DNA of 64,000 nt from Leucothrix arctica (lineage in GTDB: Bacteria; Pseudomonadota; Gammaproteobacteria; Thiotrichales; Thiotrichaceae). Shown one piece after another: positions 1,097 through 47,269 of this stretch (position 1 is the stretch's first letter; each line of letters begins with the position of its first letter). Both the position numbers and the translations under genes were made by a program. The stretch spans positions 496,001 through 560,000 of the forward strand of contig NZ_QGKL01000042.1 in NCBI RefSeq assembly GCF_003172895.1, given 5' to 3'. The notes under the pieces were generated by a model. That model made no database searches and was not told the origin of the DNA. It saw nothing but the letters and a program-made list of their open reading frames with translations.

Positions 1097-1125
1097 CATA
1101 TAGAGATATTAATTGTATGTCACCT

Positions 1126-6405: not shown

Positions 6406-6463
6406 GCAGCGACATGATTAATGTTCAATTTAAATCATTGATAATGTATGTGAGGGATAAACC

Positions 6464-8050: not shown

Positions 8051-8057
8051 ACCAACT

Positions 8058-8097
8058 AATCCTCAAGGAAAGCGCTACTTTTCTTGGGGATTAATTT
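8058..8097 (+). terminator. rho-independent terminator after oleate hydratase 2
   Basis: A stem of about 14-15 bp (TAATCCTCAAGGAAA against TTTTCTTGGGGATTA, with one or two wobble or mismatched pairs), then ATTTT. It separates the copy 1-2 unit from the element and promoter of copy 3. Confidence 0.75.
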
Positions 8098-8107
8098 TGC
8101 CCGATAA

Positions 8108-8146
8108 CTAAGTACTTTCCACAGGTACCTAAGCACATTCCCGAAT
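8108..8146 (+). promoter_or_regulatory. direct-repeat element, copy upstream of oleate hydratase 3
   Basis: Left half CTAAGTACTTTCCACA, 6 bp spacer, right half TAAGCACATTCCCGAAT. It ends 89 bp before the ATG at 8236 and begins 11 bp after the preceding terminator, so it is promoter-proximal to this gene only. Confidence 0.8.
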
Positions 8147-8235
8147 TAAATCCCCAACGTTTTTGCGTAACAATAAATTCCATGATGAGGCGCTTCTAAA
8201 GCCTAAAATAAACAATCGTTATTGGAATATCTGAC

Positions 8236-19626: not shown

Positions 19627-20244
19627 CAGCTTAAGTAACAGCTGAGCATAAAAACAAACATATTCGTCGGGGTTCAGATACCGTTCATCGGCACTGTGGA
19701 TAATGCAATTCATCCTTAGGGGTAAGGATCACAACGAAAAATAATAAAAATAATCGGATTTGTTGTTTGCTGGTAGGAAAGTGGGAATGTCTTTATGTTC
19801 CCGCTTTCTAAACCACTTTAATTGCACACTACCTCCTCAGTAAAGCGCCAAGCTAATCACATCCAGTTTAAACATCACTTCTTGTGTTCAACACAATATT
19901 CTTACTAGCCCTGAATACCTCAGTTTTCAGCACCGCCGTGTCATGGTCTTTCTTGATTATATTGAGAAGAGTGTTTCATGGCATCAAGGATATCGTATTA
20001 GTTTCTCTATTACGCGATATAGCTGCTCACAATCAACGCTACTTTAGGTAATCGTTGTCATTGTTGATATCTAAATCAAAGAAAACAAGATAACTAAAGT
20101 CAGGCTTGCTGAAAGGCACTTACGATAATTGAGGACTAAGTATTTCACGCACTTTATTAGGTACAACATCCAATAGTAACGCTAGTTCATATAGGGAATT
20201 ATGAGACATAGCTAGAAATTGATGGCCACTTTGGAGGTGCAATA
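19627..20244. other. 618-bp intergenic region
   Basis: No frame with a convincing ribosome site was found. It holds a hairpin at 19777-19808 (GAAAGTGGGAA paired with TTCCCGCTTTC, one wobble, 10-nt loop, no T run) that may end the lipoprotein transcript. It also holds the regulatory element at 20136-20174. The stretch 19920-20100 is featureless to me. Confidence 0.55.
20136..20174 (+). promoter_or_regulatory. direct-repeat element, copy upstream of USP-ndvB-xfp
   Basis: Left half CTAAGTATTTCACGCA, 6 bp spacer, right half TAGGTACAACATCCAAT. TATAGG begins 15 bp behind. It ends 70 bp before the ATG at 20245. Confidence 0.72.
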
Positions 20245-21339
20245 ATGTTTCAGCGCATTATAAAACAACTATTCCCCAGCGATGACGCGGAGGTGCAGGT
20301 AAATAGCTTGCTATCTGCGAGCACCGAATGCAGTGATTCTGTATTAAATAGTTCAGTAGGGGCGGAGTTTCGTAATTTGCTTGTTTGCCTAGATCGTTCA
20401 CAACACGCTAAGAACACACTACCTTATATAATTGCGCTAGCCAAAGGCTGGAATGCACATATAACCTTACTCAACGTGTTTGAGACTAATAAAAACCATA
20501 ACATGGAAAAGCCAGCCGACCTCTTTGACTGGAAAATACGTCATAACGAGGCACAGGACTATCTGCGTAAAGTTGCAGAAGAATCTCGGTCTGAGCTGAA
20601 AGACATTGACTATGAGTTGCAAGAAGGACAGGTGATAGAACAAATCTGTTCATGGGGTGTAGAGCACCCAACTGATCTGACTGTTTTTTCCAGTCATAGC
20701 GATAAAGTAGTGACGACCTCATCACTTGGCAGTACAGCGGTAAAGATCCTACAAGAGGTGTCAGGGTCTCTGCTATTGATTCCCGCGACTGCTCACCGAA
20801 TAGATGCAAACACTACAGTCCCTTATTCTCGTATTTTGTTACCACTTGATGGCTCAGTTCAAGCAGAAACTGCCTTTCCTATTGCTTTACGCTTAGCTGA
20901 AATTCATAAAGCAGAGTTGGTACTCGCACACATAATTACGACTCCCCAGTTGGTCAACACTGGTCCACGTTGCAGCAATGACACTGAACTCGTACAACGG
21001 CTTTTCAGGCGCAATGAGGTAACGGCAAAGGCGTATCTAGACGCCTGTCTTGCTAAAATAGATACCCATAAAGTATCAGCTCGAGCGCGTTTAATAAAGA
21101 CGGGGGATGCCCGCGATGTATTACTGCAAATTGCACGGGAAGAAAAGACAGACCTAGTTGTTCTATCAGCGCATGGTATTAGTGGCCGAGTCAATGAACC
21201 CTGTGGAAGTGTCACTGCGCATCTGTTTTCCCACCTTGCTATCCCATTGTTAATAGTACGTGAGTGCGCCAGACAAAACCGCGACGTCCAAGAAGCACAT
21301 CAAGATGAAACACGTATCCCTTTACGTGCTTCAGCATGA
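20245..21339 (+). CDS. tandem-domain universal stress protein
   Basis: 364 aa. An N-terminal tail of about 45 residues is followed by two USP domains: FRNLLVCLDRSQHA (about 47-185) and YSRILLPLDGSVQAE (about 193-345). The second domain keeps an ATP-loop-like segment (SAHG, nine residues, then GS), while the first has FSSHSDKVVTTSSLGST. USPs of this type bind ATP or AMP and are typically induced in stasis or anoxia. GGAGGTG precedes the ATG. The stop overlaps the start of the glucan synthase gene (ATGA), implying translational coupling. Confidence 0.9.
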   Translation: MFQRIIKQLFPSDDAEVQVNSLLSASTECSDSVLNSSVGAEFRNLLVCLDRSQHAKNTLPYIIALAKGWNAHITLLNVFETNKNHNMEKPADLFDWKIRHNEAQDYLRKVAEESRSELKDIDYELQEGQVIEQICSWGVEHPTDLTVFSSHSDKVVTTSSLGSTAVKILQEVSGSLLLIPATAHRIDANTTVPYSRILLPLDGSVQAETAFPIALRLAEIHKAELVLAHIITTPQLVNTGPRCSNDTELVQRLFRRNEVTAKAYLDACLAKIDTHKVSARARLIKTGDARDVLLQIAREEKTDLVVLSAHGISGRVNEPCGSVTAHLFSHLAIPLLIVRECARQNRDVQEAHQDETRIPLRASA

Positions 21340-24300
21340 CGGTTGTTAATGATACTGGCTGTATCACCTCACTAGAATGCGCGGCTCAGGATATCGCCAA
21401 AGATCATGGTTTGATTACCAAAGATCCTAAACCGATAGCGGCTCGTAAACAATTATCCCAACTGCCAAGTTGGTTGAAAGATACCCGTGAAGAATTACAG
21501 TACCCAGCACCAAAAGCACTAAAAGCAGCAGAGTGGTTGCTCGACAATGCATACATTGTGAAGCGTGCAGCACAACAGGTCGAAAAAGATTTGCCTGATG
21601 CTTTCTATGCTCAGTTACCCGCATTGCAAAAGACAGACTATAGCGGCTTACCCCGTGTCTATGTGCTGGCGGTTTCACTGTTACACAGCAGCGAATTAAA
21701 GCTAACCGAGGGTGTAGCTATTGAGTTTATCAATGCCTACCAGAAAGTAACCGTACTTGACATGGCCGAGCTGTGGGCGCTGCCCAGTATGCTGCGGTTG
21801 TTATGTTTGCAAGAAATGTTTAGCGCGCTAGAACGTTTGTCCGTCGACGTTAATTCACCTTTTTCATCTAAGCAGGGACAAGCAGGCGTCCCCATTGAGT
21901 CGCTTGATGACACTGAGTGTGTGGCACGCTGTATCAGTGTATTGCGTCTGCTATCTGAAATCTCATGGATGAAGTTTGTGCATAAGACAAGTGTTGTTGA
22001 GTCAACACTGCGCAATGATCCTGATGGTGTTTATAGCCGCATGGATGATGACACCATTGACCGTTACCGTAACGCAGTAGAGCAACTAGCGCGGGGCAGT
22101 CAACGTACCGAAGTTGATGTTGCAAAGCAGGCAGTCGAACAGGCATTAGCAGGCAAGGGCAAGCGTGAGTCTCATGTGGGTTATTGGTTGATTGATGATG
22201 GGCGCAAAACGTTTGCAACCGTTCTTGGTTATCAGCCTGACTGGCATGAGCGTGTTAGGCTGGGCTTGTTAGATCACGCTACCGCCACTTACCTGAGTGG
22301 CATTATTAGTATCACCATCGCAGCCTTAGCCTTACCCGCAAGCTTGCTGTACATGGCCGATGCCGTTGTCTCTTCTTGGATTATTGCCTTTTTTGTCAGT
22401 CTATTACCAGCCAGCATCCTAGCGCAAAGTGTTGTTAATTGGTTGGTCACACAATGGGTTGAACCACGTGTCTTGCCCAAAATTAAGTTTAGCAATGGCT
22501 TGGATGAAAGCTGCAAAACACTGGTTGTCATTCCCACCTTACTGGACAATAACGCACAATCTAATCATCTGTTGCAAAACCTTGAGCGACACTACCTTTC
22601 CAATCCCGACCCTCAGTTACGCTTTGCATTAGCCACTGACTTTAGAGATGCTCCCACTCAGCACAAGGAAGGTGATGAGCAAGCCATTGAATTTATTGTT
22701 AACGGCATTCAGACACTCAACCAGCGCTACGCACCAGACACACAGCACCTGTTTCACTTATTACACCGTGAACGACGGTTTAATGAAGCTGAGGATTGCT
22801 GGATGGGTTGGGAGCGTAAACGCGGTAAGTTAGAGGAGCTAAATAACTGGCTCGCAGGAAGTTCAGACACTAGCTTTGGCGTTTACCAAGGGGTACGAGA
22901 TAGTCTTGATAAGGTGCGATATGTCATCACATTGGATACTGACACCTTGCTACCTTCAGGTACTGCAGCGCGCCTCGTTGGTATACTCGAACATCCTTTA
23001 AATAAAGCAACCTTTGATCCATCTAATGGGCAACTGATCGCCGGTTTCAGCATCATACAACCCCGTGTAGAAATCTCTCCAGACATTGGCTTGCCCTCAT
23101 TATTTACCCGCTTTTATGCGGGAGATACCGCGATTGATATTTATAGTCATGCAGTTTCAGATGCCTATCAGGATTTTTTTGGTACAGGCATTTTTGTCGG
23201 TAAAGGCATCTATGATGTCGAGGCGTTCCGTAAAATTCTAGGTGGAAAAATACCTGATAATGCGGTGCTAAGTCATGATCTGCTAGAAGGCGTAAGTGCG
23301 CGAGTCGCATTAGCCACAGACGTTATTTTGTACGAAGAGTATCCACCGAGCTATTTAGCCTATGCCCATCGACTGCACCGCTGGATGCGTGGAGACTGGC
23401 AATTGCTGCCTTGGCTGGGTCGTCGCCGAGTGGGTACTAACAAACTGTCACTGATTGATCGCTGGAAAATCGTCGACAATATGCGGCGTAGCCTCGTACC
23501 GCCAGCGTTACTCGCTTTCTTCGTTGTTGGCTGGCTATTCCTTCCTGCCAGTCCGCTCGCGTGGACATTGCTGGCGGCATTTGGCCCCGCAACTGATCTA
23601 TTTTTAAGACTGGGCATTGAAACATCTCAGGGTATCCGTCATTTATCGGGTTGGAAATACTGGTCGACGATCCCTACCAAGCTTAAATCGGGTATTGGGC
23701 GCTGGGTGTTATTACTGGTCTTTCTGCCTTATGAAAGCATGCTCAGCCTAGATGCCATTGCACGCACCTTGTTCCGTCTGCAAGTGAGTAAGCATCACTT
23801 ATTAGAATGGACAACGGCTTCCAATATCGCGGCTCATTTTGCTGATGAAGGATCAAGACGACGTACTTGGCAGGAAATGCAGGCGTCGCCTATTATTGCC
23901 ATATGCCTAGTGACTATCTTGGCATTTTGGAACCCATCAGCGCTTCCGTATGCCTTACCGCTGCTGCTGATCTGGCTTTTAGCACCTGAGATTGCGCTGT
24001 TTATCAGTCGTAAGCCAAGTGTAAAAGTACAGACGTTAAGTGCAACTCAAACTCTCTTTGTGCGTCATCTCGCGCGCAGAACCTGGTTATTCTTCGAGAC
24101 CTTTGTCGGGCCTGATGAGCACTGGTTACCGCCTGATAATTTCCAAGAAGATCCGTATCCATCAACTGCGCACCGAACTTCACCCACTAATATCGGCATG
24201 CTGTTGCTATCGACGTTGTCTGCCAACGATCTTGGCTATATTGGTCTATCAAACCTAGCTACTCGTCTTGAGAATACCTTTGACACGCTCTCGCGTTTGC

Positions 24301-27300
24301 AGCGTTATCGTGGGCATTATTATAACTGGTATAACACTCATGACCTCAATCCTCTACCGCCTAACTACGTCTCAAGCGTAGATAGTGGCAACCTCGCAGC
24401 AGCATTGATTGCCTTGCAGCAAGGCTGCATTGAAGCGGCAAGCAGTACGGTGTCAAACGCTATTCGCTGGCAGGGGCTGGCCGACACTCTGGGTCTTCTT
24501 CGAGAGGATCTTGACCGATTGATTAGCGCAGGTGCTGATGGGCTCACAGTGCGCTTACGTGAACAGGTGGATAAACTGCTTAATGATGCCAAATCTACCA
24601 GCCAAGAAAATAAAGGAGGTGTAGATTTACTAACGCACTTCCTAACAGTAGCGATACCAGAATTTGAGCGAACGCTAGTGGAGTGGGCCGACATAGAAAA
24701 CGCGGCTCTGGACACTACTTTGATGAGCGATGTTCGTCTGTGGGTTGAGCGTATTCATGAGCATGTTAGGGATATGCAGCACGACTGCGATGCACTGTTG
24801 CCATGGATTGTACTCATGACGCAGCGCCCAGCGTCTATACCTAGTCATTCTACCCAGCGCCTACATGAGTTGTTACCTGTAGGCCTACCACTGAATATTA
24901 TCCCTGCGCAGTGTCTTGAGGCGCGTGACGAAATCACCTGTTTACGAAAAAATCCGCAGTTATCTTTTGATAGTAGTCATTGGCTTGATACGCTTGACGC
25001 TGCACTGGAGAAAGCGGCTACTAATGCAATGATTTTACGCATGCAGTTGCTAAGGCTGGCAGAGCGAGCTGAAGCAGACGCCATGGCAATGGACTTTAGT
25101 GTGTTATATGACGATCAAAAGGACCTATTTTACATTGGCTATGATCAGAGCAGTGACCGCATGGATACCCATCACTATGACCTGATGGCTTCAGAGGCAC
25201 GAGTCACCAGTTTTCTTGCCATTGCCAAAGAAGATGTTCCCTTAAAGCATTGGTTTTCATTAGGACGCCCCCTTAGCAAAGCAGCTGGTAAAACGGTCTT
25301 GCTGTCATGGGGTGGTACCTTGTTTGAATACCTTATGCCGCCATTATTGTTAAACAGTCAACACGACACCTTGTTGGCTGTTAGCCAGCGAGCAGCCATT
25401 GCGGTACAGCGTTCTTATGCTAAGCAGCACAAGGTGCCGTGGGGTATTTCAGAATCTGGCTATGCGCACATCAACTTGCACCATCATTACAGTTATCAAG
25501 CCTTTGGAGTACCTGAGCTGGGTCTGAAACGTGGCCTTGCAGATAACCTAGTCATTGCACCTTATGCCAGCGCACTTGCTTTACCGCTAGTCCCCGCTGA
25601 TGCCGCAAAGAATTTAATGGCACTGGCCGATTTATCGCTGATGGGAAATTATGGTTTTTATGAGGCGGCTGACTATACGCCAGATCGAGTACCAGAAGGT
25701 CGTAAAATGTCTGCGGTAAAGTCATACATGGCACACCATCAAGGCATGATACTCACGGCACTGGATAATTTACTGTGTAACCAGGCCATGGTGAGGCGCT
25801 TTCATGCGCATCCGCGCGTGCAAAGTTATGCCTTACTGTTGCACGAACGTGTGCCACATCACCCACCACTGGAAGTACCATTGGAGGCTAAAGATGAAGC
25901 TAAGCTGTCACCTTCAAATAAGATTCCAGATCTGCAGTCATGGCAGCCAGAATCGCCAAGTACTCATCCGCAGGCTCATTTACTGGGTAATGGACGACTG
26001 GGTAGTATTATTAACGCGTCAGGCGCAGGTGGACTGCATTGGCAACAGTATGCGATCACACGCTGGAAAGCTGATACAACACTGGATGATGCAGGCTATT
26101 GGATTTATCTGCGAGATAATGACACGGCTAAACACTTTTCAGCGACAAGCCAACCCGTTGGTGGTGAGCCTGACGCACCCACCGTGACGTTTGAAAGCCA
26201 CCGAGTAGAATCACATCGTCATAGTAATGGCATTACGCTGCGTATGGAAACCACCGTTGCACCGATGGATGATGTCGAGATTCGAGTAATAACCTTACAC
26301 AATCAAACCGACCGCATACGGCACTTGAGTGTCGCTAGTGCTGCTGAAGTGGTGTTAGCACAGCCTGCTGCAGATCAACGTCATCCCGCCTTTAGTAAGC
26401 TTTTTATTGAAAGTGAATATCTGCAGGATGTGCAAGGTTTGTTTTTTCATAGACGCCCTCGTGAGCCAGATGAAAAAGCCCCTATGCTACTGCATACGCT
26501 GATTTTTGATGATACCGCAGTGAGTGCAGGACGCTTTGAAACGAGTCGCCTTAAACTACTGGGTCGTGAAGGTAAAGGCTACAAGCATTATCCTCACTTG
26601 AGTAATACGGCGGGCGTTGTGCTTGATCCAGTGATGTCGTTAGAAGCCGATGTCACGTTGCAGCCTTATGCACAGACCCGAATCGCATTTATGACCCTTG
26701 TTGGTGGTTCTAAAGAACGATTATTGGAAATGGCACGTCGCTATCAAACACTGCCAGCGCTTGACTGGATTATGCAAGATGCGATTACTGAGGCTCGTCG
26801 TGAAGCTCATCGACTAGAAATCCTCGCAGAAGATTTGCCACACTATCAACAATTACTTTCTCTACTGCTGTATCCAAATGCGGCTATGCGTTGCGATACA
26901 TCCACTGTTGCTCACAATCAGATGGGGCAAACGACGCTTTGGGGGCAAGGGGTTTCGGGTGATTATCCTATCCTATTGTTTCGTGTTGATGCGCGTCGAC
27001 AAATGAGTCTACTGATTAAGATACTGCGGGCACAACGTCTCTGGAAGCAGCGGGGAGTGATGGTTGATATCGTGGTGCTTTGGCTCGGTAGTGCGGGTTA
27101 TGCGGATGATGCAAGTAATGCGCTTAATCCTATTTTACAAACACTGGATATGCAGGATTGGCTGGGGGCGCGTGGCGGTGTTCATCTAGTTCGCCTTGAG
27201 CAGATTTCGCAGCAGGAAGCGCAGTTGCTTGAGGTTGCAGCAAGTGTGATTTTGAATGCTAATGCAGGATCACTTGCTGAACAATTATCATTACATCATG

Positions 27301-29792
27301 AGAGCAGGCAGTTACCGCCTGCCTTTACACCCGCGCATCAATGGAGTTCGGAACCCCCAACACCACGACTGGAATGCCCAGATGATTTATTGTTCAACAA
27401 TGGCCTAGGTGGTTTCACCGCCGATGGCCGCGAATACGTCATCCACCTTGATGATAGAAAGCAAACACCAGCGCCGTGGTGCAATATATTGGCGAATTCA
27501 CAATTTGGCTCCTTGGTCAGCGAGTCAGGGCTAGGGTATAGCTGGTTTTTGCACAGTGCTGAAAACCGCTTAACACCTTGGAACAATGACCCTGTACTTG
27601 ATACCCCAGGTGAGATTTTATATTTGCGCGACGAAGAGACTGCCGAGATTTGGAGTCCGACGCCCAAACCAGTGCCGACAGACAGTGCTTATCAAGTTGC
27701 ACATGGCGCGGGTTACACACAGTGGCTTCATAATAGCCACGGGATTGAACAGCAGTTATTAGTGTTTGTACCGCTCGAAAATCCGTTAAAGATCACAAGA
27801 CTTCGCTTGCGTAATACATGGTCTCGAAGACGACGGATTACGGCCACTTTTTATGTCGAGTGGGTTCTGGGTGAATCACGCCAGTCTGGGCTGAACTTTA
27901 TAGCCAGTGAATATGACGTGACACACAACGCCTTACTGGCGCGTAATACCTGGAATGCTGAGTTTTCGGACTGTACCGCCTTTCTGGCCACCAACCACGA
28001 AGTGCATGGTTTTACCAGCGACCGAACGGAGTTTCTGGGACATGAAGGTGATCGTTCAGCTCCTGCCGCACTGAAACGTTGGGGATTGTCGAACCGTGCC
28101 GATACTGGCAATGATCCTTGCGGCGCAATACAAGTGCATATAGACATTGAAGCCAATAGTGAAGCGGAGGTTGTATTCATACTTGGGCAAGGCAATGATC
28201 GACAGCATGCTTTGCAGCTTGTTGACGAGTGGAACAGTCCAGACAAAGTGGACGTCGCATTCAATGCGCTAGGCAAGCACTGGGATAATCTGCTAGGCAA
28301 GATAGAGGTACAAACCCCTGAGCCGGCTATGAATGTGATGTTAAATCGCTGGTTATTATATCAGACGGTTTCATCAAGATTACTAGCACGTTGTGGCTTT
28401 TATCAACCGGGTGGCGCAATTGGATATCGTGATCAGCTTCAAGATGCAATGGCATTAGTACATACCGACCCACGATGGTTGCGCGGATTGCTTATACAGT
28501 GTGCTGGCGCGCAATTTGAAGAAGGCGACGTGTTGCATTGGTGGCATCCACCCGCTCATCGCGGTGTGCGTACTCATTGTTCGGATGATTTACTATGGCT
28601 GCCTTATGCAACAGCTCACTATATTCAGACCACAGGTGATCTGGCTATTCTTGATGAGCAAATTCCGTTTCTGAGTGCTCCTTTGTTACAAGCCAATGAA
28701 GGTGACCGTTATGCAGAGTTTACTCAGGGCGAACAAATGGGTTCACTGTTTGAGCATTGCCATCGCGCATTGCAAAAAGGCGTAACGAGTGGTGAGCATG
28801 GCTTACCGCTAATGGGCGGTGGCGACTGGAATGACGGCATGAGTCGTATTGGTATTGAAGGACGCGGTGAAAGCGTCTGGTTAGGGTGGTTTGCAGTGGC
28901 TGCCATGCAGGAATTTGTTTCACTGTGTCAGCAATTAGATAAGCCCGAGTTGGCCAACGATTGGCAAGTACGTATCACCAAACTTAAGCAATCCATTGAG
29001 GAGAGTGCTTGGGATGGAGAGTGGTACGTGCGTGCGTTTGACGATGATGGATTGCCATGGGGAGCTGCCCGCTCAGAAGAATGCAAAATCGATTCGATTA
29101 GCCAATCTTGGGCGATGTTCTCAGGCGCAGGTAACCCCGAAAGAACCGCTCAGGCACTGGCGTCCGCTAAGCGTCGACTCATCAACGAGCAGGATGGTCT
29201 GGTGTTATTACTAGACCCGCCGTTTAACAAGACTCACCGTGACCCCGGTTATATCAAAGGCTACCCACCTGGCATCCGTGAAAACGGCGGGCAATATACC
29301 CATGCGGCAACTTGGCTAGGCTGGGCTTATACACAGCTCGGTGATGGCGATCAGGCAATGCGTATCTTGCAACACATTAATCCCATTATGCACGCCACCA
29401 CACTCGAAGCGGTCGAACGTTATCAGGTTGAGCCTTATGTGATGGCCGCCGATATTGCATCGGTAGCGCCGCATGTTGGTCGAGGTGGATGGACTTGGTA
29501 CACCGGCTCTGCTGCATGGGCATGGCGTCTGGGAGGTGAGGCTATTTTAGGATTAAGGCGCGTTGGCGATTCTTTGTCTATTGACCCTTGTATCCCTGCA
29601 ACATGGGAAGGGTTTAATGCAACCGTTTATGGGCAAGGGGACAACCCAACTCGCTTGAACATAAAGGTATTGAATACCTCAGGCACCGGGCATGGCGTCA
29701 AAGAAGTTCGACTGGATGGTGAGTTGTTTACCTCAACTCTTATTCCGTTAAGCGAAGCAGGGGCTGTCCATGATGTTGATGTGGTTCTTTAA
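21336..29792 (+). CDS. ndvB: cyclic beta-1,2-glucan synthase (NdvB/ChvB type)
   Basis: 2818 aa, matching the usual size of NdvB. Order: N-terminal helical region, membrane helices at about 315-370, a GT84 glycosyltransferase domain with LVVIPTLL near 390, DTDT near 534 and HRWMRGDWQ near 680, further helices at about 720-890, a central domain with ESGYAHINL and YMAHHQGM, and a C-terminal GH94-type phosphorylase domain with GGDWNDGMSRIG near 2495. Family role: makes beta-1,2-glucan from UDP-glucose on a protein-linked primer at the inner membrane, trims and cyclises it, and releases it to the periplasm as an osmoregulated glucan. It overlaps the USP stop by 4 bp. No ndvA-type exporter is adjacent; the ABC exporter at 34496 is of a different family. 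Confidence 0.93.
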   Translation: MTVVNDTGCITSLECAAQDIAKDHGLITKDPKPIAARKQLSQLPSWLKDTREELQYPAPKALKAAEWLLDNAYIVKRAAQQVEKDLPDAFYAQLPALQKTDYSGLPRVYVLAVSLLHSSELKLTEGVAIEFINAYQKVTVLDMAELWALPSMLRLLCLQEMFSALERLSVDVNSPFSSKQGQAGVPIESLDDTECVARCISVLRLLSEISWMKFVHKTSVVESTLRNDPDGVYSRMDDDTIDRYRNAVEQLARGSQRTEVDVAKQAVEQALAGKGKRESHVGYWLIDDGRKTFATVLGYQPDWHERVRLGLLDHATATYLSGIISITIAALALPASLLYMADAVVSSWIIAFFVSLLPASILAQSVVNWLVTQWVEPRVLPKIKFSNGLDESCKTLVVIPTLLDNNAQSNHLLQNLERHYLSNPDPQLRFALATDFRDAPTQHKEGDEQAIEFIVNGIQTLNQRYAPDTQHLFHLLHRERRFNEAEDCWMGWERKRGKLEELNNWLAGSSDTSFGVYQGVRDSLDKVRYVITLDTDTLLPSGTAARLVGILEHPLNKATFDPSNGQLIAGFSIIQPRVEISPDIGLPSLFTRFYAGDTAIDIYSHAVSDAYQDFFGTGIFVGKGIYDVEAFRKILGGKIPDNAVLSHDLLEGVSARVALATDVILYEEYPPSYLAYAHRLHRWMRGDWQLLPWLGRRRVGTNKLSLIDRWKIVDNMRRSLVPPALLAFFVVGWLFLPASPLAWTLLAAFGPATDLFLRLGIETSQGIRHLSGWKYWSTIPTKLKSGIGRWVLLLVFLPYESMLSLDAIARTLFRLQVSKHHLLEWTTASNIAAHFADEGSRRRTWQEMQASPIIAICLVTILAFWNPSALPYALPLLLIWLLAPEIALFISRKPSVKVQTLSATQTLFVRHLARRTWLFFETFVGPDEHWLPPDNFQEDPYPSTAHRTSPTNIGMLLLSTLSANDLGYIGLSNLATRLENTFDTLSRLQRYRGHYYNWYNTHDLNPLPPNYVSSVDSGNLAAALIALQQGCIEAASSTVSNAIRWQGLADTLGLLREDLDRLISAGADGLTVRLREQVDKLLNDAKSTSQENKGGVDLLTHFLTVAIPEFERTLVEWADIENAALDTTLMSDVRLWVERIHEHVRDMQHDCDALLPWIVLMTQRPASIPSHSTQRLHELLPVGLPLNIIPAQCLEARDEITCLRKNPQLSFDSSHWLDTLDAALEKAATNAMILRMQLLRLAERAEADAMAMDFSVLYDDQKDLFYIGYDQSSDRMDTHHYDLMASEARVTSFLAIAKEDVPLKHWFSLGRPLSKAAGKTVLLSWGGTLFEYLMPPLLLNSQHDTLLAVSQRAAIAVQRSYAKQHKVPWGISESGYAHINLHHHYSYQAFGVPELGLKRGLADNLVIAPYASALALPLVPADAAKNLMALADLSLMGNYGFYEAADYTPDRVPEGRKMSAVKSYMAHHQGMILTALDNLLCNQAMVRRFHAHPRVQSYALLLHERVPHHPPLEVPLEAKDEAKLSPSNKIPDLQSWQPESPSTHPQAHLLGNGRLGSIINASGAGGLHWQQYAITRWKADTTLDDAGYWIYLRDNDTAKHFSATSQPVGGEPDAPTVTFESHRVESHRHSNGITLRMETTVAPMDDVEIRVITLHNQTDRIRHLSVASAAEVVLAQPAADQRHPAFSKLFIESEYLQDVQGLFFHRRPREPDEKAPMLLHTLIFDDTAVSAGRFETSRLKLLGREGKGYKHYPHLSNTAGVVLDPVMSLEADVTLQPYAQTRIAFMTLVGGSKERLLEMARRYQTLPALDWIMQDAITEARREAHRLEILAEDLPHYQQLLSLLLYPNAAMRCDTSTVAHNQMGQTTLWGQGVSGDYPILLFRVDARRQMSLLIKILRAQRLWKQRGVMVDIVVLWLGSAGYADDASNALNPILQTLDMQDWLGARGGVHLVRLEQISQQEAQLLEVAASVILNANAGSLAEQLSLHHESRQLPPAFTPAHQWSSEPPTPRLECPDDLLFNNGLGGFTADGREYVIHLDDRKQTPAPWCNILANSQFGSLVSESGLGYSWFLHSAENRLTPWNNDPVLDTPGEILYLRDEETAEIWSPTPKPVPTDSAYQVAHGAGYTQWLHNSHGIEQQLLVFVPLENPLKITRLRLRNTWSRRRRITATFYVEWVLGESRQSGLNFIASEYDVTHNALLARNTWNAEFSDCTAFLATNHEVHGFTSDRTEFLGHEGDRSAPAALKRWGLSNRADTGNDPCGAIQVHIDIEANSEAEVVFILGQGNDRQHALQLVDEWNSPDKVDVAFNALGKHWDNLLGKIEVQTPEPAMNVMLNRWLLYQTVSSRLLARCGFYQPGGAIGYRDQLQDAMALVHTDPRWLRGLLIQCAGAQFEEGDVLHWWHPPAHRGVRTHCSDDLLWLPYATAHYIQTTGDLAILDEQIPFLSAPLLQANEGDRYAEFTQGEQMGSLFEHCHRALQKGVTSGEHGLPLMGGGDWNDGMSRIGIEGRGESVWLGWFAVAAMQEFVSLCQQLDKPELANDWQVRITKLKQSIEESAWDGEWYVRAFDDDGLPWGAARSEECKIDSISQSWAMFSGAGNPERTAQALASAKRRLINEQDGLVLLLDPPFNKTHRDPGYIKGYPPGIRENGGQYTHAATWLGWAYTQLGDGDQAMRILQHINPIMHATTLEAVERYQVEPYVMAADIASVAPHVGRGGWTWYTGSAAWAWRLGGEAILGLRRVGDSLSIDPCIPATWEGFNATVYGQGDNPTRLNIKVLNTSGTGHGVKEVRLDGELFTSTLIPLSEAGAVHDVDVVL

Positions 29793-29864
29793 GTGGTTAG
29801 TCATTAACGCACAAGAGCCACTTTTTGGGATATCTAAATCCTCAACTGACTATTTGGTGACAAT

Positions 29865-32279
29865 ATGAAAATCGTACACAACACAGAAACACAGGATGAT
29901 CCTCTAAGTCTTGAGGAGTTAGCCAACATAAATGCTTACTGGCGGGCGGCAAATTATCTATCGGTTGGTCAAATCTATTTATTGGATAATCCCTTATTAA
30001 AGAAGCCCTTAAAATTAAAACATATTAAACCCAGATTGCTTGGACATTGGGGGACCACGCCGGGTTTGAATTTTATTTATGTACATTTTAATCGGGTGAT
30101 TAAAAGGCAAAAACTAAATGTTATGAATATCACGGGGCCCGGTCATGGTGGTCCCGGTATTGTTGCGAATGCTTTTCTGGAAGGGACTTACAGCGAGGTT
30201 TACCCCAATATTTCTCAAGATGAAGTGGGTATTAAAAATCTGTTTAAACAGTTCTCCTTTCCGGGTGGCATTCCTAGTCATTGTTCACCGGACACCCCAG
30301 GTTCGATCCATGAGGGTGGTGAGTTGGGTTATTCGGTGTCACATGCTTATGGTGCTGTTTTCGATAATCCAGACCTGATTGCCTGTTGCGTTGTGGGTGA
30401 TGGCGAAGCAGAGACTGGGCCACTGGCTACAGCATGGCACTCAAACAAGTTTTTAAATCCTATTAAAGACGGTGCTGTACTTCCTGTTCTGCATTTAAAT
30501 GGTTACAAGATCGCAAGTCCAACGATATTGGCACGCATAAGCCATGATGAGTTGGAGAAACTTTTTGTAGGTTATGGGTATAAGCCATATTTTATAGAGG
30601 GTTCTGATCCTGAAATGATGCATCAGCGTATGGCAGCGGTCTTGGACTCTGCAATTGCAGAGATCAAGGCTATCCAACATGAAGCTCGTATTAAAGGCGT
30701 TACCGAGCGCCCAATTTGGCCAATGATAATTTTACGAACGCCGAAAGGCTGGACGGGCCCTAAGGAAGTTGACGGTCATAAAGCGGAAGGTTCTTGGCGC
30801 TCGCATCAGGTGCCTTTGTCAGAAATGGCTACAAAACCGGAGCATGTTGCACTGCTCGAAACATGGATGAAAAGTTATAAGCCCGAAGAGTTATTTGATG
30901 AAAATGGCACACTAATTAATGAACTCACTGCGCTAGCACCAACAGGTATCGCTCGTATGAGTGCTAACTTACATGCAAACGGAGGCTTGTTACTTAAAAG
31001 TCTACAGCTGCCAGATTTTCGAAAGTATGCGGTTGAGGTACCAGCGCCAGGTCAGGTGTTAGCTGAAGCGACTCGGGTTATGGGGTGCTTATTACGAGAT
31101 GTCATGACGCTCAACTACGAGGCACAAAATTTTCGCGTAATGGGACCTGATGAAACCAACTCAAATCGATTGGGTGCTTTGTTTGAAGTGACAAACCGAG
31201 CATGGATGGCCAGCAAACTACCCGAAGATGATCATCTTGCGGCAGATGGTCGTGTCATGGAAATTCTAAGTGAACATACTTGCCAAGGTTGGTTAGAGGG
31301 TTACTTGCTAACGGGCCGCCATGGTTTTTTTTCCTGCTACGAAGCCTTCATACATATTGTCGACTCCATGTTTAACCAGCATGCTAAATGGTTAAAAGTA
31401 AGTCGAGAGATACCGTGGCGTCAACCAATTGCATCACTAAATTATTTACTGACTTCACACGTTTGGCGACAAGATCACAATGGTTTCTCTCACCAAGACC
31501 CTGGGTTTATCGACCATGTGCTAAACAAAAAAGCCACGATGATTCGTGTGTACTTACCACCTGATGCTAATACCTTATTAGCCATCACTGATCAGTGCCT
31601 GCGTAGCAAAGATCTTATAAATGTTATCGTTGCTGGTAAGCAGTCACAGCCGCAATGGCTTGATATGAGTTCGGCAATTAAACATTGCACGGCTGGAATT
31701 GGTATCTGGTCATGGGCGAGTAATGATCACAATGACGAGCCCGATGTCGTCATGGCTTGCGCTGGAGACACGCCAACCATCGAAACACTCGCCGCCGTAG
31801 ATTTATTGCGCCAGCATGTTCCAGATATAAAAATACGGGTGATTAACGTAGTAAATTTGATGACGTTGTTACCCAGTGAAGAGCACTCTCAAGGCTTGTC
31901 TGATAAGGACTACGATAGTTTATTTACAACCAATAAACCGATCATTTTTGCCTATCATGGTTATCCTTGGTTGATTCACCGCTTAAGCTATCGACGCACT
32001 AATCATAAAAATCTTCATGTTCACGGTTATAAAGAAGAGGGTACTACCACGACGCCATTTGATATGGTTGTGCTTAACGAGTTAGACCGTTTTCACTTGA
32101 TGGCTAATGTCGTTGACCGAGTGCCACGGCTTACTCAGTCAGGTGCTTACATTAAGCAGTATATTCGCGATAAGCTGATTGAGCACCGTCTTTATATTAC
32201 CGCTCATGGTAAAGATATGCCTGAAATTACAGACTGGAAATGGCCATCTAGACCTTATAATAATAGCGACAATGAGTGA
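29865..32279 (+). CDS. xfp: phosphoketolase (xylulose-5-phosphate / fructose-6-phosphate)
   Basis: 804 aa, the usual size for Xfp. TPP-enzyme features: GPGHGGPG at about 92-99, [24 protein letters not shown] further on, and the TPP/Mg motif GDGEAETGP at about 179-187. Reaction: cleaves xylulose-5-P or fructose-6-P with phosphate to acetyl-phosphate plus glyceraldehyde-3-P or erythrose-4-P, giving acetyl-P without redox change. It follows ndvB by 72 bp with no terminator, so it is probably the third gene of the USP-ndvB-xfp operon. No acetate kinase is adjacent. The carbamate kinase at 46352 is a related phospho-acyl enzyme but lies in another operon. Confidence 0.94.
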
Positions 32280-32322
32280 TCCACCGATTGATGGAATGCT
32301 TGTTGCCAACAATATAGGTATT

Positions 32323-32357
32323 AAAAACATCACCCCCTGAAAAATCAGAAGATGATG
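32323..32357 (-). terminator. rho-independent terminator on the minus strand behind an orphan element
   Basis: On the minus strand CATCATCTTCTGA pairs with TCAGGGGGTGATG (three G-U pairs) and is followed by TTTTT. It resembles the terminator of the outer-membrane gene at 32802-32836, with a shared CATCATCTTCT left arm. No intact gene precedes it, so it ends either a remnant or a short RNA. It also lies 43 bp behind xfp but is oriented the other way. Confidence 0.65.
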
Positions 32358-32442
32358 TATGAGGATCTGAGCTGTAAGGGGAGGGGGCTAGATCCTAAAG
32401 CTGAGCTCAATACAAAGGTTAACAAGTTTCATTTATGAGTAG
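32358..32442 (-). pseudogene. remnant of an outer-membrane protein gene, or short noncoding RNA
   Basis: The stretch lies between a good copy of the regulatory element and a terminator, both on the minus strand. It holds only a 14-codon frame (MKLVNLCIELSFRI then stop). The alternating end of that peptide resembles a final beta-strand of a barrel, and the terminator resembles that of the outer-membrane gene at 32906. I infer a duplicated barrel gene that lost its body; a regulatory RNA of about 100 nt is the alternative. Confidence 0.4.
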
Positions 32443-32443
32443 T

Positions 32444-32482
32444 ATCCGTAAATATGCTTAGTGTTATGCGTTAACTACCTAG
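32444..32482 (-). promoter_or_regulatory. direct-repeat element, orphan copy
   Basis: On the minus strand: left half CTAGGTAGTTAACGCA, 6 bp spacer, right half TAAGCATATTTACGGAT. It is most like the copy at 33673 in front of the outer-membrane gene, but no intact gene lies downstream of it. Confidence 0.65.
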
Positions 32483-33837: not shown

Positions 33838-34503
33838 ATGAATCACTCGGTTAGCCATACGAAAATTAATACACTAAGCAATGTTCATTCCATAGATAGA
33901 AATGACTTTATTATAAGAAATTGCGAAAAACTGTTTAATATTGGTGATCGCCTCAGTGGTATCTATAGGATTAATTCAGGTTCCGTAAAACTGTACAGAA
34001 GCAATGAAGCTGGACAGGAGCAAATTCTTGGATTCTACACGGCGGGTGATATTTTTGGCTTAGATGCCTTGAGTGATGGTAAGAGTCAATCCAGCGCTAC
34101 TATCTTGGAGACTTCAAATATCTCCTTAATTCCTTTTAATACATTGCTGAAAAGAGAAAATAGCGGTGATTATAAAATCTTCATGCAGCAAGTCGGTATT
34201 AATCATAATAGGGATATAGATCACACGATGATGCTACTGCACTGTTCGGCTGGTCGTCGTCTTGCCTGGTTCTTTATCAAGTTTTCAGACAACTTGAGTA
34301 AGCGTGGATACCGTGCAGATGAATTTACCTTGCCTATGACAAGAAAGGATATTGCTTTATATCTAGGGGTTGCCGCAGAGACATTAAGTCGTGTCTTTGC
34401 ACGTTTCTGCGCAAAAGGGTTTATCAGAATCATAGGGCACCAGCGCAGTATAAAAATATTAGAAATTGATGTGCTACGAAATATGATCAACAGGGATGAT
34501 TAA
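33838..34503 (+). CDS. FNR-like Crp-family regulator without the Fe-S cysteines
   Basis: 221 aa. The cyclic-nucleotide-type beta-roll covers about 30-115, the dimer helix about 118-155 and a winged helix-turn-helix about 160-215. The HTH recognition helix carries Glu181, Ser184 and Arg185 (ETLSR), the residues FNR uses to read TTGAT half-sites. The N-terminal cysteine cluster of FNR is absent: only Cys29 lies in that part. It therefore probably does not sense oxygen with a 4Fe-4S cluster, and is more like DNR or another cluster-free group. Strong AAGGAG. It overlaps the exporter operon behind it by 8 bp. FNR-type boxes occur at four other places in the window and are its plausible targets. 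Confidence 0.85.
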   Translation: MNHSVSHTKINTLSNVHSIDRNDFIIRNCEKLFNIGDRLSGIYRINSGSVKLYRSNEAGQEQILGFYTAGDIFGLDALSDGKSQSSATILETSNISLIPFNTLLKRENSGDYKIFMQQVGINHNRDIDHTMMLLHCSAGRRLAWFFIKFSDNLSKRGYRADEFTLPMTRKDIALYLGVAAETLSRVFARFCAKGFIRIIGHQRSIKILEIDVLRNMINRDD

Positions 34504-36924: not shown

Positions 36925-37633
36925 TTCTAACGCGATTACCCTGCAACTTAAGGACATCCGGAAAGCCTATAATATCGGGTTGCCCGCTGAAACAGAGATC
37001 CTGCATGGCATCGATTTGATCATCAAACGGGGTGAGTTTGTGGCATTGATCGGTCCTTCGGGGTCGGGTAAAAGCACACTGCTTAATCTCATAGGTCTGC
37101 TCGACAAACCCACGTCGGGGGAGCTGTTCATTACTGGACAGGCGACAACCCAGTTACAGGATCGTGAGCTCACAATGTTACGTGCTAAGTCCATTGGTTT
37201 TGTGTTTCAGTTTCACAACCTACTGCCAGAATTCACCGCGTTAGAGAATGTCATGTTACCGATGCTCGCCGCCCGAGGTCGTCCTGATGAAGCGATAGGT
37301 GTACGCGCGGCAGAATTGATTGAGCAAGTAGGGCTTACTAGCGTTGGCAAACACATGAGTAATAATTTATCGGGTGGACAACAACAACGTGTCGCCATTG
37401 CCCGTGCATTGGTCATGCAACCAGCGCTGGTACTGGCCGACGAGCCGACGGGTAACCTAGATACCCAATCCGCCGATACGATATTTGACTTGCTGCGTCG
37501 TGTGAATCAAACCAGTAACACCAGCTTTATTATCGTGACTCATGATCCAAGGTTGGCGAAGCGCTGTGATCGTATTATTGAATTGGTCGATGGCAGGATT
37601 GATTCGGACAAGCCTAATGTTGCGGAAAGTTAG
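36917..37633 (+). CDS. MacB/LolD-type ABC transporter ATPase
   Basis: 238 aa from GTG 36917, overlapping the permease by 8 bp. The in-frame extension upstream to 36779 lies within the permease gene and does not look like an ATPase, so I exclude it. Walker [10 protein letters not shown], signature LSGGQQQR, Walker [12 protein letters not shown] and the His switch THD are all present. It powers the adaptor/permease pair before it. Its last 20 bp overlap the convergent kinase gene. Confidence 0.88.
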
Positions 37634-39185
37634 TCGTCAATATGGCCAGTGCATTTACATCAACAGGGACTTCAGTGCTGACTTCTAAGCAATAGTTAGC
37701 TTCATCGGAGTCAAGAGCTTGCCACTGCCTCAATTGATGCACCAATACGTTCAAATCCGCATCCGATGCTTCTTTCTTTCTCGACACAATGCGTTGTTTT
37801 AAAAGCTCCACACTTGCGGTAAATTCCAGAATAACAAATCGGTATCCCATCTTTTCAGCCAGCCTTTGAAAACTCTGTCGTTGCGCTTTATGCATAAACA
37901 CGGCATCCACAATCACATCAAACCCTGCCGCTAATGTCTGCTCGGTCACTTCTAGTAATCGGTGATACGTATCCTGCGTGGCTTGCTTGCTATATAGACC
38001 AGTCTCGACGGTAGTAGCGGCGGAATCAGTCGCTTTCAAGTTGTTGAGGCGTTTCCGCTCAACATCAGAACGAATACGTATCGCCCCCAGCTCAGCAGCC
38101 AATGGTTTGCTAATGCTGCTTTTACCCGATGCCGACAAGCCACGAGTAATGATCAGTGTTGGTTGCTTGTACTGACTAATTTGCAACGCTAAGTCCATAT
38201 AAGCATGAAGCTCAGTCTCGGTGGCTTTGAATTCTTGCGGGCTAATGCCTGATTGTTGGTCTCTCAGCGCATCAATCTTCGCTCTGACTAATGCACGGTA
38301 ACTAATGTAATAGGGCAGTAACGCAAGGCCAGCGTAGTCTCCGGTTTGTTGCAGGTATTGGTTGAGAAAGGCGTAGGCGAGTGCTGTCTGTTGGCGACTC
38401 AGTAAGTCCATGACCAGAAAGGCGACTTCGCACATTACGTCAATCCACCGTAGTGATTCGTCAAACTCTAGGCAATCAAAAGCGACGGGGTGGTCATCTA
38501 TCCAAATGAGGTTTCTGAGGTGCAAGTCACCGTGGCATTCACGGATAAAACCGTTTTGCTTTCGTTGAATGAAGAAGGGCGCTAGTGCTTTGTTTTGTTT
38601 GTCTATCCATTCCTCAATGCTAGAAAGCGTTGTTTCATCATCTGATAAATAGGCTTTTAGCACGGTTATATTGTCATCAACCAGCTGATGAATCTGCGCC
38701 AGATCGCCATATTCATTTGTTAAAAGCGCGGGTGGAAGTTGAAGATGGAAGTCCGCCAACATAGTGCCGATTGCTTCCATATTTTCAGAACTTAATAAAC
38801 CTTGCTTTAGGCGATTATCCAGCTGTGCTGATTGCGGAAACTCGCGCATAAGAATGGCGTATTCGATGACAGGGCCATCACCCTCAATCATGGGCTTATC
38901 TTCAGATCCGTTGACCGTGTTGACACCCAGGTACACATCCGGAGCCAGTCTAGCGTTAAGGCGTAACTCCTCCTCACAGTAGTATTTACGTTGAGCTAGG
39001 GTACTGAAGTTTAGAAAGCCCAGATCTACCGGCTTTTTAAGCTTATAGGCGATACTACCCGTGAGAATAATCCATGAAATATGAGTTTCCAGTAGCGTGA
39101 CACTATCGGGTGAGGGCGTCTCAGGTGATTGACGAAGGTTTGATAATAAATTTTTGATCAGCGCTGGCTGTACGTTATGTGACAT
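37614..39185 (-). CDS. aminoglycoside phosphotransferase-like domain fused to a P-loop kinase
   Basis: 523 aa from ATG 39185, preceded by AAAGGAG; a TTG 6 bp upstream is too close to that site. The N-terminal part (about 1-330) is a kinase of the APH-like COG2187 type, with ECHGDLHLRNLIW as the catalytic loop and FDCLEFDESLRWIDV as the metal-binding Asp segment. The C-terminal part is an AAA_33 P-loop kinase with RGLSASGKSSISK. Widespread in proteobacteria; substrate unknown. It often accompanies USP genes, as here. Confidence 0.85.
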   Translation of the reverse strand: MSHNVQPALIKNLLSNLRQSPETPSPDSVTLLETHISWIILTGSIAYKLKKPVDLGFLNFSTLAQRKYYCEEELRLNARLAPDVYLGVNTVNGSEDKPMIEGDGPVIEYAILMREFPQSAQLDNRLKQGLLSSENMEAIGTMLADFHLQLPPALLTNEYGDLAQIHQLVDDNITVLKAYLSDDETTLSSIEEWIDKQNKALAPFFIQRKQNGFIRECHGDLHLRNLIWIDDHPVAFDCLEFDESLRWIDVMCEVAFLVMDLLSRQQTALAYAFLNQYLQQTGDYAGLALLPYYISYRALVRAKIDALRDQQSGISPQEFKATETELHAYMDLALQISQYKQPTLIITRGLSASGKSSISKPLAAELGAIRIRSDVERKRLNNLKATDSAATTVETGLYSKQATQDTYHRLLEVTEQTLAAGFDVIVDAVFMHKAQRQSFQRLAEKMGYRFVILEFTASVELLKQRIVSRKKEASDADLNVLVHQLRQWQALDSDEANYCLEVSTEVPVDVNALAILTTNFPQH

Positions 39186-39249
39186 CTTCAAACTCCTTTA
39201 CGGGTGGGTTCGTTCAGTACATTAAACACAGTTATATGCCTTGCTTGTC

Positions 39250-39846: not shown

Positions 39847-40461
39847 TCAAGCTAAGTCTGAATGAATAACGATGCGTACCAGATCAGCTAGCGAACGTGC
39901 GCCCAGTTTATCCATCACCTTAGCTCGATGGGCTTCAACAGTACGCTGACTCAAACCTAGGTCAATAGCGATTACTTTATTAGCTTTTCCGTCTATGACC
40001 ATCCTCATCACCTCACTTTCTCGTGAGGTAAGTTCAAGGAGATGCTGTTGTATTATTTGGCGTTCCTGTTGAAGTTCATAACCCTTGCTACACTTACCAA
40101 GCGTATGGTTGATACGGTCAAGCAAGTCTTGGTCGCGAAACGGTTTCTGGACGAAGTCTTGCGCACCATCACTCATAGCTTTTACAGCCATGGTGATATC
40201 CCCGTGGCCGGTAATGAAAATAATCGCCAGTGAAGTATTGCGTTTGTTGAGTTCTTCTTGTAATTCGAGTCCACTCATCATTGGCATGCGAATATCTAAG
40301 AGAAGGCAGCCTTGTTGTCCCGGTTCATACCTAGTCAAAAAATCTTGGCAACTGGCGAAGGACTCATTCTTGAGTCCAACTGAGTCCATGAGGTCGGTTA
40401 ATGAATCCCTTACCGACTCGTCGTCGTCAACAATATATACCATCAAATCTTCATTGCTCAT
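39847..40461 (-). CDS. FixJ-family response regulator
   Basis: 204 aa. The receiver domain has the acidic pocket VDDDE, phospho-acceptor Asp56 (LLLDIRMP), Thr84 and Lys106. The output domain is a LuxR/FixJ helix-turn-helix: LTSRESEVMRMV, then LGLSQRTVEAHRAKVMDKL and SLADLVRI, which follows FixJ of rhizobia closely in the recognition helix (SPRTVEVHRANVM, from memory). It is translationally coupled to the sensor kinase upstream (4-bp overlap). The repeated element in this window has a left half resembling FixJ sites, so this is the prime candidate regulator. Confidence 0.92.
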   Translation of the reverse strand: MSNEDLMVYIVDDDESVRDSLTDLMDSVGLKNESFASCQDFLTRYEPGQQGCLLLDIRMPMMSGLELQEELNKRNTSLAIIFITGHGDITMAVKAMSDGAQDFVQKPFRDQDLLDRINHTLGKCSKGYELQQERQIIQQHLLELTSRESEVMRMVIDGKANKVIAIDLGLSQRTVEAHRAKVMDKLGARSLADLVRIVIHSDLA

Positions 40462-46351: not shown

Positions 46352-47269
46352 ATGCTGATAGTGATTGCAGTGGGTGGAAATGCTTTACTTCATCGTGGTG
46401 AACCTCTAACTGCGAAAAATCAACGTGCAAACGTTCAGCTTGCAGCTCGCGCAATTGCTGAGGTTATTAATGCAGGTCATGAGGTTGTTGTCACCCATGG
46501 TAATGGGCCTCAAATTGGCTTGCTAGCCTTACAAGGTGCTGCTTACAACCCCGATGAAATGTATCCATTGGACCTGTTAGGTGCAGAAACTGATGGAATG
46601 ATTGGTTATTTGATTGAACAAGAACTTGAAAATGCCATGCCTGCAGGGTATCAGGTGGCAACGCTAATCACTCAGATTGAAGTAGATGCGGCAGACCCTG
46701 CTTTTAGCACACCTTCAAAACCAGTGGGACCTGTTTATACCAAAGCAGAAGCTGATCAAATGGCATTGACACGAGGTTGGGCAGTTGCTCCCGATGGAGA
46801 AAATTATCGACGTGTAGTTGCCTCACCTTTGCCAATATCAATACCTGATATTCCTATCATAAACCTATTACTGAAACAGCAAGTGACAGTTATTTGTGCC
46901 GGTGGGGGAGGCATTCCAGTTGTCCGTCTAAATGATGGAAGTTTGATTGGGGTTGAAGCTGTGATTGATAAGGATAGGGCGAGTGCATTACTCGCTAAAA
47001 AGCTGGGTGCAGATATGTTGCTTATGTTGACGGATGTAGATGCAGTTTATACTGACTGGGGTGGGCCAGAACAATCAGTTATCAGGCATGGCTGTGCACA
47101 AAAGATGAAAAAAATGAACCTAGCAAAGGGATCTATGGGGCCGAAGGTTGAAGCTGCTTGTGACTTTGCTATGTCTGTAGGTAGAAAAGCTGGTATTGGT
47201 AAATTGCAAGATGCATTACAAATTATTGAAGAAAAAGCAGGTACCGTTATCTATAATCGTTCGCACTAA
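46352..47269 (+). CDS. arcC: carbamate kinase
   Basis: 305 aa amino-acid-kinase family: VIAVGGNALL at the start, THGNGPQIGLL, CAGGGGIPVV, then DKDRASALLAKKLGADMLLMLTDVDAVY. Reaction: carbamoyl phosphate plus ADP to ATP, CO2 and ammonia. No arginine deiminase or ornithine carbamoyltransferase gene is near, so its carbamoyl-phosphate source is unclear; it may salvage ATP from cyanate, ureide or general carbamoyl-P. The direct-repeat element upstream places it with the stress genes. Confidence 0.93.
   Translation: MLIVIAVGGNALLHRGEPLTAKNQRANVQLAARAIAEVINAGHEVVVTHGNGPQIGLLALQGAAYNPDEMYPLDLLGAETDGMIGYLIEQELENAMPAGYQVATLITQIEVDAADPAFSTPSKPVGPVYTKAEADQMALTRGWAVAPDGENYRRVVASPLPISIPDIPIINLLLKQQVTVICAGGGGIPVVRLNDGSLIGVEAVIDKDRASALLAKKLGADMLLMLTDVDAVYTDWGGPEQSVIRHGCAQKMKKMNLAKGSMGPKVEAACDFAMSVGRKAGIGKLQDALQIIEEKAGTVIYNRSH

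Follow-up and report, generated by a model that had tools for sequence, protein, structure and literature searches.

A tandem universal stress protein (USP) gene and ndvB, a glucan synthase gene of the NdvB/Cgs type, form an ancient and strict pair. One copy of this pair lies in a stretch of 64,000 nucleotides from Leucothrix arctica (contig NZ_QGKL01000042.1, positions 496,001 to 560,000), which is called the window here and whose own numbering is used throughout. The two products probably constitute an obligate functional pair, in which the USP would bind the synthase and gate glucan synthesis, with the operon switched on at low oxygen or energy. In the window, xfp, a phosphoketolase gene, is the third gene of the operon. 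The locus has the following parts:

20136-20174, + strand: element copy ahead of the USP gene, with two half-sites CTAAGTATTTCAC and TAGGTACAACATCCAAT; 25.3 bits
20197-20202, + strand: -10-like hexamer AATTAT, at the distance common to all 12 element copies
20233-20238, + strand: Shine-Dalgarno-like GGAGGT of the USP gene (sequence)
20245-21339, + strand: tandem USP gene; 364 aa, two Usp domains (PF00582, two stretches)
21336-21339, + strand: ATGA stop/start overlap of USP gene and ndvB, 4 bp (sequence)
21336-29792, + strand: ndvB; open reading frame of 2,818 aa
29793-29864, + strand: gap between ndvB and xfp, 72 bp
29865-32279, + strand: xfp, phosphoketolase; open reading frame of 804 aa (Pfam and NCBIfam)

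This layout agrees with an earlier note on the same DNA, which had described the 4-bp overlap, the 72 bp to xfp and the element copy in front. On inspection of the sequence the USP gene has a good Shine-Dalgarno sequence and ndvB has no clear one ahead of its start, which fits translational coupling from the USP gene to ndvB. Because no sigma-70-like promoter, terminator match or element copy was found in the 72-bp gap, the three genes appear to form a single operon, read from one mRNA.

Pairing of the USP gene with ndvB

Evidence for the pairing comes from a survey of ndvB in genome_contigs, covering the best 80 loci of more than 593 pattern matches, a sample that leans to the window's type. 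Of these 80, 28 have a USP related to that of the window directly upstream of ndvB. A tree of 79 NdvB rows was built by a quick method without bootstrap, after two short NdvB (L073 and L086) had been removed. This tree puts all 28 rows with a paired USP, which come from the window and from 27 loci (two of the loci sharing an identical NdvB), into one clade with 8 contig-end rows, at an SH-aLRT of 100. Outside the clade, none of the 36 rows with at least 400 bp upstream has a USP; 7 other contig-end rows also fall there. The earlier note had called the coupling of a stress protein to a glucan synthase unexpected, and the coupling is real and conserved clade-wide.

The paired clade spans Pseudomonadota, Myxococcota, Chloroflexota and Aegiribacteria, together with one Acidobacteriota row cut by a contig end. 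Ten more NdvB, from five plasmids and five genomes, are of the paired type by score and stand outside the tree; all ten have the USP upstream. The plasmid pairs, each with an annotated USP immediately upstream, belong to Sinorhizobium fredii, Novosphingobium, Sphingopyxis, Hoeflea and Sphingomonas. An Agrobacterium synthase scores like unpaired NdvB and is without an upstream USP.

The USP can also be followed on its own. A profile of the paired USPs reaches at least 344 bits in 4 of 398 genomes of the phylum (G000, G746, G460 and G464), and the next best score is 106; the profile was built with the USPs of all four, so that their scores are expected and the gap to the others is what is informative. 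Each of the four carries a paired-type NdvB with the USP upstream and a short N-terminal domain. A search for ndvB in those 398 genomes also gave other full-length NdvB with lower scores, not all of them placed in the tree. A separate survey of the class (369 genomes), to which the USP profile was not applied and in which many loci end before the gene start, gave a USP at one locus of genome G375 (L112) and in the window only.

The two genes also lie close together, with an in-frame ndvB start placeable within about 25 nt of the USP stop in 25 of the 28 loci. USP and NdvB distances correlate (r = 0.82 in 33 pairs, with L026, L021 and the plasmid rows left out), as co-inheritance alone would give likewise. 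A conserved further neighbour of the pair was also sought and rejected: no Pfam family occurs in more than 4 of the 86 flanking proteins scanned, which are part of 166 flanking open reading frames found.

Mobile stress islands may bring genes together by chance, and this island does move. Searches of 6 further genomes of the genus, three of which are less than 70% complete, and of 17 of the family gave no match to the paired USP above 25 bits, so that the island was probably acquired by this lineage, and related pairs sit on plasmids. Against chance, the pair has been kept through the deep divergence of Pseudomonadota, Myxococcota and Chloroflexota. Chance adjacency is thus refuted for the USP gene and ndvB and possible for xfp; as an account of the locus its probability is close to nil.

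The trimmed synthase and its tandem USP

Two places in ndvB matter for what follows:

21840-21896, + strand: N-terminal place (residues about 169-187) where unpaired Cgs carry about 70 more (alignment, model)
23142-23144, + strand: codon of Tyr603, counterpart of primer Tyr694 of Agrobacterium tumefaciens Cgs (alignment)

The window NdvB matches A. tumefaciens Cgs (8rf0, 8rf9) over nearly its whole length, with 1,792 bits, and resembles it in the catalytic residues for glycosyltransfer (GT), cyclisation and GH94, in the primer tyrosine and in the N-terminal fold. Pfam finds a GT2-type transferase (23.1 bits, cut-off 27), PF10091, a GH94 supersandwich and a GH94 catalytic domain, the GH94 part being PF17167 and PF06165. 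NCBIfam holds no model for this protein.

Conservation was counted in 44 clade rows, leaving out L083 (a long branch) and L021. The primer tyrosine, Y603, is Tyr in 42 of them, Arg in one and a gap in one. At the GT residues D534, D536, D648, R682 and W683 the sole change is R to K, once; the rest are gaps. All 44 rows keep the cyclisation residues E1287, E1331, E1373, H1467 and H1468, which were matched by spacing and invariance, without direct alignment, to E1356, E1400, E1442, H1536 and H1537 of the italicus enzyme; the GH189 catalytic residues are those given in an excerpt of PMC10834661. The Asp of the GH94 motif GDWND at 2496 is found in 41 rows, with 3 gaps. With the primer tyrosine and the catalytic residues of three enzymatic domains conserved in this way, NdvB very probably works as a cyclic glucan synthase, one whose N-terminal domain is trimmed.

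The trimming can be measured between E145 and L225, positions that are invariant in all NdvB groups. The interval holds 68-94 residues in 38 of 38 paired NdvB versus 134-155 in 48 of 49 unpaired ones; contig-end rows are left out, and the 38 include both L021, whose NdvB is identical to that of L015, and L097, which is almost a copy of L095. In the odd unpaired row, L058, the gene start was missed in calling the reading frame. An AlphaFold2 model of residues 1-318 (pLDDT 92.9) aligns with the N-terminal domain of A. tumefaciens Cgs at a Z of 24 (16.6 to 24 over three entries), and 309 residues of the model span 379 there. The difference as an artefact of one group was rejected, as the sister group of the clade and the Agrobacterium synthase both have the long form. 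It may have come about either by loss of the part in paired NdvB or by gain of the long form elsewhere. By these features paired NdvB would be a variant of the Cgs family, a distinct subfamily rather than a standard member. Residues 1-220 also resemble the C-terminal lobe of choline-kinase/APH-type kinases (Z of about 9-11), scores that may be general for a helical fold.

For a model of the USP (pLDDT 84), tandem USPs top the Foldseek list, and the best solved match is Rv2623 of Mycobacterium tuberculosis (3cis), at 16-19% identity. The nucleotide motif of USPs is G-2x-G-9x-G-[S/T]. Domain 2 of the window USP reads S-A-H-G...G-S, with the first Gly of the motif replaced, and retains D202-G-S and G311...G321-S322. 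Among 33 aligned USP partners (five truncated or duplicate paired loci and the plasmid rows left out), D202 and G311 do not vary, and S204 and G321 hardly vary; these four are presumably positions of the domain-2 nucleotide site. ATP binding by the USP is plausible on these residues but uncertain.

The USP could instead help the shortened synthase to assemble or fold, perhaps by aiding the first autoglycosylation of the primer tyrosine, and be no nucleotide sensor. Coupled translation would bring the USP beside nascent NdvB. Passages of PMC10901819 describe the N-terminal domain of A. tumefaciens Cgs as a scaffold that contacts all other parts, with a TPR-like part that holds the glucan primer on autoglycosylated Tyr694; when the primer is absent, the interface between this domain and the GT domain is disrupted. 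The length difference falls in that same N-terminal domain. Against a pure scaffold, the near-invariant D-G-S and G...G-S of USP domain 2 fit nucleotide binding better, and the assembly role is unlikely.

Control of the operon and its surroundings

Three candidate regulators lie in the window:

33838-34503, + strand: Fnr/FixK-like regulator of the same island (Fnr model 135 bits, below the cut-off of 228)
39847-40461, - strand: NarL/FixJ-type response regulator, candidate reader of the element (Pfam; best NCBIfam model FixJ)
40458-42320, - strand: HAMP-PAS histidine kinase, likely partner of the response regulator (Pfam, NCBIfam)

The element was modelled as two blocks trained on six copies, with the copy at 20136-20174 held out. 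At 20 bits or more, 12 copies occur in the window; 30 Markov resamplings gave none of at least 18 bits (best 17.9). All 12 have A at +24 and T at +28 downstream, which are the A and the final T of a -10 hexamer with the consensus GATTAT, a position chosen among 40 columns after inspection. Because a -10-like hexamer stands at a constant distance in 12 of 12 copies, the element appears to behave as a promoter, with an activator site and a -10 at a fixed distance. The best block A reads CTAAGTAGTTTCC, near the FixJ sites TAAGTAATTTCCC and GTAGTTTCCC, an unscored likeness; block B, TACGTA, resembles the FixJ site GTAMGTAG (all three sites from an excerpt of PMC4999443).

The element was also considered as a general genomic repeat and rejected as such: the exact pattern has 8 copies in 4.75 Mb, all inside the window. 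A literature search with the letters of block A gave nothing related by title among the matches listed. The window response regulator may read the element. The kinase is nearest to FixL, by its kinase core only (237 bits versus a cut-off of 850), and carries HAMP.

The regulon seems to run on beyond the right end of the window (contig C37, 560001-600000; L101 and L102). A scan without shuffle control gave looser copies of the element in that part; they precede a USP with an ABC exporter as well as a PLP decarboxylase with an antiporter-like protein, and one more lies in L102. A candidate small RNA of about 90 nt with a C-rich loop lies 3' of xfp (32318-32482, - strand). Its element copy spans 32482-32444 and is followed, at the distance common to the copies, by a weak -10-like TAACCT. 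It further has a terminator-like hairpin with a T tail (32358-32327) and a fold z-score of -3.5 (32318-32430), and is without an Rfam match.

Some relatives carry a different signal. Of 33 loci, 5 have a perfect TTGATNNNNATCAA (FNR/FixK) box ahead of the paired USP, where shuffles expect 0.00, and 9 have a box if one mismatch is allowed, versus 0.43 expected; loci with too little upstream sequence are omitted from the count. For unpaired ndvB the corresponding figures are 0 of 36 and 1 of 36. In 776 kb of DNA from paired loci there are 12 perfect boxes, and 5 of them fall in the 410-bp upstream stretches. Of the nine loci with a box, one is Chloroflexota and the other eight belong to named Pseudomonadota or to genomes of the window's phylum; in L030 the box overlaps the USP start as called.

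The plasmid loci have varying mixtures of neighbours: USPs, adhP, pfkB-type kinases, CBS proteins, P-type ATPases, an HPF protein and Crp/Fnr regulators. The window has USPs, adhP, an Fnr-like regulator and an HPF-like protein in common with them. A setting of oxygen or energy stress, the latter proposed in the earlier note, gains support from this gene company, from the FixJ-like promoter and from the FNR/FixK boxes of some relatives. In every genome examined this type of synthase is accompanied by that same USP, and this suggests control of the synthase by the USP under shortage of oxygen or energy.

Co-regulation alone would also explain a stable two-gene operon, if USP and synthase are needed under the same stress and never touch. 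USPs are plentiful in such islands, and stress-type promoters drive the operon here and in some relatives. Several facts speak against it. Whenever a partner lies upstream in the loci examined, it belongs to one and the same tandem USP family, and no member of this family was found apart from this NdvB type in the 398 genomes. The synthase shows a matching N-terminal difference, and the other neighbours vary. Co-regulation without contact is possible, though rather unlikely.

The preferred reading, a USP that binds and gates the synthase, would work as follows. The USP would be made from the same mRNA as NdvB by translational coupling. It would most likely be a dedicated cytosolic subunit of a distinct Cgs subfamily, perhaps ATP-sensing, that binds the synthase physically. 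Glucan synthesis would be gated according to the adenine nucleotide state, with control presumably running from the USP to the enzyme. Low oxygen or energy would switch the operon on, through a FixJ-like two-component promoter here and through FNR/FixK in some relatives, and phosphoketolase would have joined the operon in this lineage.

A number of observations count against this reading. As to the pair, the USP-ndvB gap is 43-204 nt in 3 of 28 pairs, no fused USP-NdvB protein was found among the open reading frames of the clade, the strict domain-2 motif is present in 15 of 36 USP partners and domain 1 is degenerate. As to control, the element copy of the window operon is the third-weakest of 12 (six-site scan), and the response regulator scores 217.5 bits to the FixJ model, its best, under the cut-off of 255. 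The element as a feature common to USP-ndvB loci was rejected: since the model gives nothing of at least 13 bits in 11 other paired loci (5 plasmid, 6 genome_contigs), FixJ-like control of the window pair does not appear to be shared by them. Finally, 24 of 33 loci have no FNR box at up to one mismatch, including the window, Myxococcota and all Chloroflexota but one.

Other genes of the neighbourhood can be described briefly. A fusion of an APH-like and a P-loop kinase occurs in the window (37614-39191), in L171 (13173-14687) and in L094 (11706-13325); in the last two it adjoins the USP-ndvB pair or sits one small gene away. Three consecutive oleate hydratase genes lie at 4831-9828, the first and third with an element copy of their own. 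Six tRNA genes are clustered at the left edge of the window (738-1580), four of them near-identical repeats; tRNA clusters are a common insertion point for islands.

Phosphoketolase, the glucan and known systems

Xfp is genuine by family models, with PF09364, PF03894 and PF09363 over their cut-offs and 4 of 6 NCBIfam models likewise. Its gene has a tblastn match in 0 of the 80 ndvB loci and in 0 of 5 plasmid loci; many of the 80 are short contigs from which a downstream xfp could escape, and loci with 10 kb on each side are also without it. By this comparison xfp joined the operon locally, in this lineage. The trio had been put forward as a unit, with a search for the same order elsewhere: the order of USP gene and ndvB recurs, that of ndvB and xfp does not, and the three genes were rejected as a conserved unit.

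No PF00871 (AckA, acetate kinase) match was found in the genome, and a single partial PTA_PTB match reaches 24.7 bits against a cut-off of 24, which makes acetate formation via acetyl-phosphate doubtful. A carbamate kinase gene with its own element copy (46352-47269; arcC model over cut-off) lies in the island of this genome, with no arginine deiminase among its annotated neighbours.

A conserved carbon-overflow pathway, with glucan and acetyl-phosphate as its products, would account for three genes behind one element with no internal promoter match. Five other loci (L088, L174, L094, L095 and L097) have phosphoenolpyruvate synthase close to the pair, and L088 also has phosphoglucomutase, as if supplying sugar nucleotide. 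The missing Xfp in the other loci and the poor AckA and PTA_PTB results tell against such a pathway, which is very improbable.

A ChvA-family exporter gave no match over the cut-off in the genome (best 286 versus 585 bits). In five other genomes with paired-type NdvB nothing was found at 1e-100, with part of the candidates scored in some genomes; ChvA over the cut-off thus occurs in 0 of 6 genomes with paired-type NdvB versus 3 of 5 with other NdvB. The earlier remark that neither an exporter nor acetate kinase adjoins the operon holds, and the ChvA and PF00871 searches extend it genome-wide. Classical osmotic adaptation, also proposed there, needs export and is not supported by these results. 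If there is no exporter at all (others besides ChvA are possible), the glucan would be cytosolic and a storage role likelier than an osmotic one.

An extended version of the preferred reading can be built on this. The USP would be a nucleotide-gated subunit that replaces the missing N-terminal part of NdvB, a universal stress protein thereby serving as a fixed subunit of a polysaccharide synthase, and the glucan, without ChvA, a cytoplasmic carbon store for low oxygen. The GT domain would fill the store when energy is available, the GH94 phosphorylase would return glucose-1-phosphate at no cost of ATP when energy is lacking, and in this genome phosphoketolase, encoded in the operon, would lead on to acetyl-phosphate. 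Taken whole, this version is speculative and improbable.

Several known systems resemble parts of the locus. Compared with A. tumefaciens Cgs, NdvB of the window type has an N-terminal domain about 70 residues shorter, always a USP in front and no ChvA match over the cut-off. Rv2623 is likewise a tandem USP, and its fold is the best solved match of the window USP. It is reported, in an excerpt of PMC5549992, to bind the exporter Rv1747 and to affect surface glycolipids, which sets a precedent for a tandem USP with a membrane exporter as its target. Contact there is made via an FHA domain, whereas Pfam shows none in NdvB; identity is low, and the domain-1 nucleotide motif of the window USP is degenerate. 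TeaD of Halomonas elongata (3hgm) is a USP named after a membrane transport system, the ectoine transporter TeaABC (PDB title), but it has about 150 residues and one domain, and its partner is a TRAP transporter rather than a synthase.

Gene lists like those of the window and the plasmid islands, as far as the available passages go, are known from the lxa (low-oxygen-activated) locus of Burkholderia cenocepacia, an island that contains six USPs and is linked to low oxygen (PMC6127331), and from the Bradyrhizobium FixK2 regulon, whose microoxia tables include phosphoketolase, USPs and oleate hydratase (PMC6515984, PMC9104804). They differ in that 'glucan' occurs 0 times in the available text of PMC6127331 and PMC9104804, and in that the window element is FixJ-like and not an FNR box. 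In open-licence PubMed Central (PMC) literature nothing was found that joins 'cyclic glucan synthase' with 'universal stress protein', and the listed matches to 'NdvB' with 'universal stress' were judged unrelated. Enzyme and USP are each of a known kind; their fixed pairing, with a trimmed synthase, is new.

USPs are very common, and most of them are not known to act on a particular target. Here one USP family has a fixed, ancient and single partner, and for a member of the partner's family, A. tumefaciens Cgs, the structure has been solved. Because of this, a long-standing question becomes directly testable, whether a USP senses nucleotides and switches an enzyme on or off. The pair also defines a Cgs subfamily that is seemingly tied to oxygen limitation, not to host contact or low osmolarity.

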